From positions 2,542,001 to 2,606,000 of the forward strand of contig NZ_LT629799.1 of assembly GCF_900105785.1 (NCBI RefSeq): DNA of 64,000 nucleotides, in the 5' to 3' direction. Shown piece by piece: positions 35,463 to 39,723 of this stretch. Numbering within the stretch: the stretch's first letter is position 1; each line of letters begins with the position of its first letter. The translations under genes and the position numbers were made by a program. Under the pieces are notes generated by a model. The model did not search any database and had not been told where the DNA came from. It saw only the letters and a program-made list of their open reading frames with translations. Source of the DNA: Microlunatus sagamiharensis. GTDB lineage: Bacteria > Actinomycetota > Actinomycetes > Propionibacteriales > Propionibacteriaceae.

Positions 35463-37853
<2,391 letters not shown>

Positions 37854-37863
37854 GCCTGCTGAC

Positions 37864-37899
37864 CCTCGGCCCGGCACCCCTGCGGGTGTCGGGCCGAGG
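37864..37899 (+). terminator. lon terminator hairpin
   Basis: 16-bp arms with one G-U-type mismatch (37864-37879 and 37884-37899) around a CTGC loop, 10 bp after the lon stop. No T-tract. Confidence 0.85.
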
Positions 37900-37981
37900 T
37901 GCTTGACCGGCCAACAGTTGACGCTTTGTTCATCGTGTTACTCGCTCATTGCATGACACGGTGCTAAAGTCTTCTCAGCAA

Positions 37982-38007
37982 GCGGGTAGTACGTCGGAGG
38001 AACTACC
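37982..38007 (+). promoter_or_regulatory. Leader inverted repeat of marR copy 1
   Basis: A 26-bp block containing GGTAGT-N11-ACTACC, with GTCGGAGGA in the loop. It starts about 12 nt behind a likely -10 box (TAAAGT after GTGC), so it would sit at the very 5' end of the transcript. The same 26 bases occur without change at 38707-38732 before the second marR gene. It can act as DNA operator or RNA hairpin. Confidence 0.7.
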
Positions 38008-38149
38008 AGGCTTCGAGACGTGGACGAGGGTCCTGCGAGCTTCCGTTGGGGGAAAGCTCTCAGGCCCCGTTCTACGATCTGGCCCTACGATGCGAGCGCA
38101 TCGGACACCCCCGCTGACGAGGAGCCCCGACATCACCCAGGACGACGTC

Positions 38150-38608
38150 ATGGGCACGGCCGTCCGCAACCTGCGCAGCCTGATCCTGGCCGGGGAGTAC
38201 TACCGCCAGGCGGTGTCCGAGGCCATCGGCCTGGGCACCACGGAGACGCAGGCGCTGTCCTACCTCGCCGTCCACGGCGAGAGCGGGCAGTCGCTCCTCG
38301 CTCGCGACCTCGGGCTGACCAGCAGCGCCTCGACCTCGCTGGTGGACCGCCTGGAGCGCCAGGGCGTCGCCGAGCGCGTACGGCACCCGCACGACCGGCG
38401 CCGACTGATCGTCCGACTCACGGACCGCGGCCGTGCGGTCGTCGAGGAGAGCTACGCATGGCTGGCCTCCACGCTCGAGCAGGTGGAGCCCGACGAGCTG
38501 GAGCACGTCTCCGCGATCCTCGCCTTCCTGGCCGACGACCTGAAGACACGCACCGCGGGGCGTCAGGCCTCGGGGTGGCGCGGCCTCACCCACGCACTTC
38601 CCGTCTGA
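38150..38608 (+). CDS. MarR family transcriptional regulator, copy 1
   Basis: 152 residues from the ATG at 38150 (MGTAVRNLRSLILAGEYYRQ). The winged helix is clear: LLARDLGLTSSASTSLVDRL as recognition helix, then VRHPHDRRRLIVRLTDRG as the wing with the conserved DxRR. Long helices at both ends form the dimer domain. It is about 70% like copy 2 by eye. An ATC at 38132, 7 nt behind GAGGAG, aligns with the TTG start of copy 2 and may be the true start; ATG 38090 lacks a ribosome binding site. Confidence 0.88.
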   Translation: MGTAVRNLRSLILAGEYYRQAVSEAIGLGTTETQALSYLAVHGESGQSLLARDLGLTSSASTSLVDRLERQGVAERVRHPHDRRRLIVRLTDRGRAVVEESYAWLASTLEQVEPDELEHVSAILAFLADDLKTRTAGRQASGWRGLTHALPV

Positions 38609-38706
38609 GAAGCGGACCGGCGCGGTCAAGGACTGCTCGATCGTTCGACGGCTCGACGGCCGGTCACTCCGATCATCGAGCGATCGTGCTACCGTTCTCC
38701 CCGCAC

Positions 38707-38732
38707 GCGGGTAGTACGTCGGAGGAACTACC
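38707..38732 (+). promoter_or_regulatory. Leader inverted repeat of marR copy 2
   Basis: Identical over 26 bases to 37982-38007, again with GGTAGT/ACTACC arms and GGAGGA in the loop. It is again preceded by GTGCTA at the -10 position. Sequence on either side has diverged more, although AGGCTT and a CGAG block persist downstream, so the repeat itself is under selection. Confidence 0.7.
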
Positions 38733-38842
38733 GCAGCAGGCTTGTCGAGGACGCTTCCCTTCCAGGACGGCGATCCGGCTGACGGGTCTCAGCCGCACCC
38801 GACCGGCACCGCACGGTGCCCCACCTGCCCCAGGAGCCATCT

Positions 38843-39319
38843 TTGTCGTCCCCCTCGGTGATGGCGGAAGCCGTCCGCAACCTGCGCCAGATGATCCTGG
38901 CCGGCGAGCACTACCGGCAGGCGTTCGCAAGCGCCGCCGGGCTCGGGGCGACCGAGAGCCAGGCGCTGTCCTACCTCGCGGTGCACGGCGACAGCGGGCA
39001 GACCGTGCTCGCCCGCGATCTCGGGCTCACCAGCAGCGCCTCCACCGCCCTCGTCGACCGCCTCGAGCGGCAGGGGGTGGCCGAGCGCGTCCGGCACCCG
39101 CGCGACCGGCGTCGCACGATCGTCCACCTGACGGAGCGCGGGCTCATGATCGTCGCCGAGAGCCAGCGGTGGCTCGCCGAGACCATGGCCCAGGTCGACG
39201 AGGGCGAGCTCGAGCGCGTGTCCGCCTCCCTCGGCTTCATCGCCGAGACCCTCCAGGGGCGCACCGCCACCGGCGAGGAACGCCATTGGGCGGGCCTCAC
39301 CCACGCCCTTCCCGCCTAG
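38843..39319 (+). CDS. MarR family transcriptional regulator, copy 2
   Basis: 158 residues from the TTG at 38843, chosen because CAGGAG lies 6 nt upstream; the protein begins (M)SSPSVMAEAVRNLRQMI. Winged helix VLARDLGLTSSASTALVDRL and wing VRHPRDRRRTIVHLTERG are nearly the same as in copy 1. Both proteins end in GLTHALP plus one residue. A tandem duplication is likely. Ligand and targets are unknown. A 6C RNA gene follows 90 bp downstream. Confidence 0.88.
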   Translation: MSSPSVMAEAVRNLRQMILAGEHYRQAFASAAGLGATESQALSYLAVHGDSGQTVLARDLGLTSSASTALVDRLERQGVAERVRHPRDRRRTIVHLTERGLMIVAESQRWLAETMAQVDEGELERVSASLGFIAETLQGRTATGEERHWAGLTHALPA

Positions 39320-39410
39320 CCACCTCGGCCTGTATGTCATGTTCCGGCCATTGCCGGTTGAGGACATCGGTATCTGAGGATGGCGCTCAGTCCGTGCCCT
39401 AAAGTAATTC

Positions 39411-39512
39411 ATGGCGGACGGGGGTGATGAACCCCCGAGCATCATCCTCGTCCGCCGAACCGGGAAGCCCGTACCCACCTGAACCCCCGAGCAGGTGAGT
39501 GCGGGCTTCCTG
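39411..39512 (+). ncRNA. 6C small RNA
   Basis: Two successive strong hairpins with the same C-rich loop AACCCCCGAG. The first is a continuous 17-bp stem (39413-39429 with 39440-39456, two G-U pairs). The second is a 19-bp stem with one mismatch (39463-39481 with 39492-39510). Two stem-loops with C-run loops define the actinobacterial 6C RNA (B11 in mycobacteria). A -10 box TAAAGT (39400-39405) puts the 5' end near 39411. The second hairpin probably also terminates. In mycobacteria 6C acts on cell-division and replication-related mRNAs. Confidence 0.85.
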
Positions 39513-39723
39513 TGCGTCCGGAACCGCACGCGCTCCTGCCGCTCGGCGGGCACCGCGGAATCCGCGGTCGTGGCCCGAGGTGGAGCCCCGTCAGCCCCTC
39601 GTGCCCGCGCGTCCCTGACGAGCGAGCGCCACGGGCCCGCTCGGGCACGGCCCGGAGCCCTCGCGCCCCGGATGCTTCCCCGAACCCTGACGAAGCACGG
39701 TGACGGGGCCGCCCTGCGAGCGG
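39513..39723. other. Intergenic stretch between 6C RNA and terC
   Basis: Convergent spacer of 211 bp. I see no gene, no strong terminator and no recognised site. Short open frames here lack ribosome binding sites. Confidence 0.4.

Follow-up and report, generated by a model that had tools for sequence, protein, structure and literature searches.

A conserved inverted repeat in the promoter regions of tandem marR paralogues of Microlunatus as a predicted MarR operator

A tandem marR pair and a 6C-like RNA between lon and terC

We analyzed a 64-kb stretch of DNA from Microlunatus sagamiharensis (the window), in which two marR genes and a small RNA, all on the + strand, lie between lon and the convergent terC within the intergenic region 37854 to 39723. 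The first gene, marR1 (38132 to 38608), encodes a MarR-family regulator, and the second, marR2 (38843 to 39319), encodes a paralogue that is 69% identical to it. Both proteins scored above the Pfam curated cut-offs for PF12802 (marR1, 40.7 bits, E value of 2.7e-10; marR2, 40.0 bits, 4.5e-10; cut-off, 27) and for PF01047 (34.0 and 34.8 bits; cut-off, 24.6), bearing out the family assignment made in an earlier, sequence-only reading of the locus. That reading had looked to the Nocardioidaceae as the family, but Microlunatus belongs to the Propionibacteriaceae. The probable start codon of marR1 is the AUC at 38132, which follows an AGGAG at 38120 to 38124, with the first ATG at 38150; for marR2, the probable start is the TTG at 38843, after an AGGAG at 38832 to 38836, with an ATG at 38861.

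Upstream of each gene lies the same 26-mer, GCGGGTAGTACGTCGGAGGAACTACC, on the + strand at 37982 to 38007 (copy 1) and 38707 to 38732 (copy 2). The two copies are identical at 26/26 positions, exactly where the earlier reading had placed them, and the adjoining bases differ (A or C before, A or G after). Each 26-mer contains a 23-bp near-palindrome, GGTAGT-N11-ACTACC (37985 to 38007 and 38710 to 38732), so that both marR genes have an inverted repeat in their own promoter region; we propose each copy as a MarR operator. The 23-mer is dyad symmetric at 9 of 11 pairs, and the N11 segment, taken earlier for a loop, is therefore itself partly symmetric. Allowing up to 2 mismatches, the arms at this spacing matched exactly twice in the 64 kb, against 0.41 matches expected, and at least two matches were found in 4 of 100 shuffles; hence, the arms alone are just mildly unusual, and the part that is not due to chance is the identity of the whole 26-mer. 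The two copies are the only ones in the 4,405,185-base genome, where a search for the 23-mer that tolerated 3 mismatches found no other.

Predicted -10 hexamers, each preceded by TGC and read by eye, are TAAAGT at 37965 to 37970 for marR1 and TACCGT at 38690 to 38695 for marR2 (both + strand). The hexamer is 11 nt from the 26-mer at both copies, and TGnTAnnnT-like hexamers are found at 11 to 14 nt in the relatives. The -10-like box that had been claimed ahead of each copy can thus be seen, while a consensus promoter scan of 37800 to 39600 returned 0 sites, which leaves the transcription start as a prediction. The 26-mer ends 124 nt ahead of the probable AUC of marR1 and 142 nt ahead of its first ATG; for marR2, the distances are 110 nt (probable TTG) and 128 nt (ATG). 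The distance of 130 to 145 nt given earlier is a rough fit, and for the ATGs only.

The third feature is a 6C-like RNA with two hairpins (39409 to 39516, + strand), which neighbors the marR genes, has AACCCCCGAG in both loops, and is preceded by a -10-like hexamer of its own, TAAAGT, at 39400 to 39405. Its two-hairpin fold is conserved (z score of -9.0). In its C-rich-loop hairpins and covarying stems it resembles the 6C RNA (RF01066; B11 in mycobacteria), whereas the loops of the window copy hold five C residues rather than six and the RF01066 model does not match it: in this genome the model had no match at any reported threshold, and across 20 genomes of the genus it had no match over the cut-off and sub-threshold matches elsewhere in 5. 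A dyad of ~32 bp (TGTCCnnTTnnGGACATGTCCnnAAnnGGACA type) was seen by eye upstream of the promoters of 6C-like RNAs, in a degenerate form at 39335 to 39366 in the window and also in L059, L060, and L079.

Conservation of the element in three Microlunatus species

In an order-wide sample, the element matched in 3 of 293 genomes, all of them of the genus of the window: its own genome, G042, and G229. G042, which is Microlunatus flavus (Propionibacteriaceae; the spacing of the copies is among the grounds for this identification), has two copies, one of them with ACTGCC, and G229 has one exact copy in this sample. A second G229 marR gene, reached via a protein search of 20 genomes of the genus, has a diverged copy, GGTGGTAGATCGGAGGAACTGCG. 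In the same or a changed form, the element is therefore present in 6/6 leaders of orthologous marR genes from three Microlunatus species, and the earlier expectation that it would accompany orthologous genes held.

Across these six promoters the element is the only strongly conserved DNA. Its mean pairwise identity is 0.92, versus 0.27 to 0.43 for four ungapped neighboring stretches, in line with the earlier remark that the flanks had diverged; the element is therefore under selection. It is conceivable that a recent duplication or gene conversion left the repeat behind without function, since the two genes are tandem paralogues, but the neighboring DNA has diverged to near-random identity and the element persists in three species whose six MarR proteins are 54 to 80% identical, making such an origin extremely improbable. 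In the protein tree, marR1 of the window and marR1 of M. flavus grouped together (support of 94/87), and most forks were weakly supported.

Scans of wider scope added no further marR-associated copies. With up to 2 mismatches allowed, 7 of 198 genomes of the family matched, namely the three known ones and four with single matches, none of which, on inspection, had a marR context; a reversed control pattern gave 3 matches. A scan of a named genome collection returned 7 stretches, one of which is M. flavus; among the other six, the one inspected, L052, lies in a coding frame.

In 7 of the 15 other genomes of the genus that had a lon match, terC adjoins lon without marR, and the other lon loci of those 15, among the loci listed, have different neighbors. 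No CGGAGGAAC occurs within 1.5 kb of lon at the 14 other-genome loci listed. From the seven genomes without marR at lon-terC, it would follow that the marR-marR-RNA module was inserted in the clade of three species or lost elsewhere.

The six genes also share features downstream of the element. An in-frame ATC lies 6 to 8 nt after AGGAG in five of them (38132 in the window, L007, L025, L003, and L008), and the marR2 gene of the window (38843) has TTG where the other five have ATC. Since the ATC is well placed after AGGAG, the downstream ATG is ~25 nt from AGGAG, and G229_1 lacks ATG, GTG, or TTG there, five of the six genes likely initiate at AUC, which would keep the repressors at a low level. 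Further copies of the 6C-like RNA were found in L003 (2231 to 2337), L008 (2048 to 2154), and L025 (2038 to 2143). The loops are two AACCCCCGAG, except that one G229 copy has ACCCCCCGAG as its second loop. The RNA follows each marR gene in G229 and marR2 only in M. sagamiharensis and M. flavus. A model built for this RNA identified seven strong loci (E value below 1e-10) in 5 of 157 genomes of the family; four of them come after the marR genes described here, and the remaining three, from two additional genomes, lack an adjacent marR. The idea of one module with a 6C RNA is thus borne out insofar as the 6C-like RNA adjoins marR in three species; it does not extend to the three strong loci without marR, or to a match with RF01066.

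The element as a possible RNA hairpin

At the predicted start, the element could also form a hairpin at the 5' end of the marR mRNA that shows its GGAGG loop to a trans-acting partner or the ribosome, thereby controlling marR translation or stability. The partner might be, for instance, a small RNA with C-rich loops, such as the neighboring 6C-like RNA, or the 30S subunit, bound by a 5' stabilizer. Several observations fit this proposal, which the sequence-only reading had offered as one of two. The element would sit at the extreme 5' end, and positions 10 to 20 (TCGGAGGAACT) are invariant in 6/6 copies and thus more conserved than the arms, with the changes falling in the left spacer and the arms. 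In the second copies of M. flavus and G229 (G042_2 and G229_2), the arm changes preserve pairing when G-U pairs are counted (6/6 and 5/6, respectively), while the symmetry of the DNA drops to 5/6 and 3/6, and an outer stem gives G229_2 a more stable fold than 199 of 200 shuffles (z score of -3.3). On the other hand, five of the six copies fold no better than shuffles (z scores of +0.2 to -1.0), and when the entire leaders of the two window copies were folded, the predicted structure was not the hairpin. Covariation was not significant among only six sequences, with one pair changed on both sides and 157 of 500 shuffles scoring as high. Homologous sites, described below, keep the arms and their spacing without GGAGG. 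Taken together, these data make control by a 5'-terminal hairpin unlikely.

Two reports on mycobacteria describe C-rich loops of 6C/B11 that bind G-rich ribosome-binding sites (PMC10470900, PMC12395582); because of this precedent, the 6C-like RNA may possibly act on the marR mRNA. Pairing between its loops and the leaders exceeded that of shuffles only for G229_1 (0/60 shuffles as good) and G042_1 (2/60), and there via a different hairpin, with UYGGGGG; shuffles did as well in 4/60 cases for own_2, 8/60 for G042_2, 9/60 for own_1, and 50/60 for G229_2. An alignment of the leaders showed that marR1, but not marR2, has a further inverted repeat in its leader (38037 to 38059, + strand), with a UUGGGGG loop. 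The loop is kept as UYGGGGG in the three species (window, L004, and L003) and could pair with the complementary CCCCCGA in the loops of the 6C-like RNA, a result that is suggestive for this hairpin only.

Two other types of leader were considered and rejected. For a leader peptide, inspection by eye of the six leaders found no start codon suitably spaced downstream of GGAGG. For an ANTAR-type or other Rfam RNA, there was no match: the whole window contained none at the gathering threshold, and a search of 37800 to 39700 with E values up to 10 gave 9 matches far below gathering, none of them over the element on the + strand.

Operator-like sites before homologous marR genes

Besides the six genes described above, the genus provided 16 marR homologues, whose promoters we searched for RGTAGT-N11-ACTACY, scoring each out of 12 and comparing the counts with 300 shuffle sets. 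Scores of at least 10/12 were obtained for 4 of the 16 promoters (G272_b, 12; G272_a, 11; G113, 10; G053, 10), a result that is partly post hoc, since the idea came from the G272_b site, seen by eye beforehand. In the shuffle sets, the mean was 0.15 and the maximum 2, and none reached 4. When spacers of 0 to 25 were compared, only N11 gave promoters with scores of at least 11, and the other lengths gave a maximum of 2 promoters with at least 10. Like-built sites therefore stand before more distant homologues: AGTAGT-TCAATAACTTG-ACTACT in G272_b, AGTAGT-TTGACCAAATG-ATTACC in G272_a, AGTAGT-CGCACGGTCGA-GTTACT in G113, and AGTTGT-TCGACAGTCGG-ACAACC in G053, in which both arms are changed together. 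None of these spacers has anything in common with ACGTCGGAGGA; display of GGAGG therefore cannot be the function that unites the sites. By eye, the site directly follows a -10-like hexamer in G272_a and G272_b, as in the window, while in G113 it lies ahead of the apparent -10 and would then escape transcription. A search of seven Microlunatus genomes for exact arm pairs returned six locations; at five, the pair precedes a gene of this marR subfamily, and the sixth is within a coding frame.

Considered together, these comparisons make it probable that the element is a conserved autoregulatory MarR operator common to the tandem paralogues, each copy being a predicted DNA operator for this MarR subfamily. 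The operator would be placed just downstream of the promoter, and a ligand or redox signal would release the MarR repressor. In this, the comparative data side with the other proposal of the sequence-only reading, a start-site MarR operator available to both proteins; from them we infer MarR binding, repression, cross-regulation by the two proteins, and the transcription start.

Several findings count against an operator. The four positive promoters are not independent, as G272_a, G272_b, and G113 (and also G001_b) share CAAGTAGT. The site is lacking in 12 of the 16 homologous promoters, including those of the closest four paralogues from these three species (best scores of 7 to 9 of 12). The half-sites of a MarR dimer are usually spaced one turn apart, and the 17 bp between the centers of the arms exceeds that. 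The nonpalindromic spacer TCGGAGGA is invariant in the six copies, which a simple palindromic operator would not require, and in G229_2, the copy that has diverged furthest, just 5 of the 11 dyad pairs remain. Coevolution with the recognition helix was considered and set aside: G229_2 has SSALTAL in place of SSASTAL, but the G272 proteins, which have good sites, differ there too, so this residue helps neither way. The nearest paralogues without the element (own_p1854, own_p1436, G229_p1922, and G042_p533; L036 to L039) share a promoter motif of their own, approximately CTGGTATTTTCCTGAGAA, as seen by eye.

The asymmetric conservation would also suit an element limited to this clade that is read by a transcription factor other than MarR, or that acts as promoter-proximal DNA within the initial transcribed sequence. 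The fixed 11 nt (11 to 14 nt in relatives) to the -10-like hexamer fits such an element, and MarR binding is a prediction. However, other genes of this MarR subfamily are preceded by sites that agree in arms and spacing, which is not simply explained in this way, and we regard such a role as very unlikely. A double role, in which the element would serve as a MarR operator in DNA and would fold in the transcript into a hairpin at the 5' end, its GGAGG loop recognized by the C-rich loops of the 6C-like RNA or by 30S subunits, appears quite unlikely. If it were true, the repressor pair with AUC starts, the operator, and the neighboring small RNA would make up one two-level switch.

The earlier statement that no element of this form had been described is too strong, as a MarR palindrome and ACTA/TAGT half-sites are in print, although in the literature searched we found no publication with the sequence of the element or one combining Microlunatus, the MarR family, and an operator. 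As reported, the Ms6508 MarR of Mycobacterium smegmatis recognizes a 21-bp palindrome, ATACCTCTGT-N-ACAGAGGTAT, only at its own operon (PMC4143341), and AesR, a MarR-type regulator of Corynebacterium glutamicum, binds ACTA/TAGT half-sites in ACTATG-N3-CATAGT and CGACTA-N7-TAGTTG (PMC13413800). Like the former, the Microlunatus element is a palindrome of comparable length that stands in front of the regulator gene itself and has no further site in the genome, but the spacer between its arms, 11 bp long and largely asymmetric, is conserved in the clade, and two tandem paralogues share the predicted site. With the AesR operator, which is reported to overlap the promoter of its own operon, it has in common the ACTA/TAGT half-sites of an actinobacterial MarR-type site; the AesR sites have N3 and N7 spacing and lie side by side for one regulator, unlike the N11 of Microlunatus.

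A palindrome close to the start of transcription may be mistaken for an RNA leader, and comparison of arms and spacing across homologous promoters separates an operator from a leader of this kind. For Microlunatus, the analysis provides a testable operator, RGTAGT-N11-ACTACY, for an undescribed MarR subfamily, and the tandem marR pair is predicted to repress each other.
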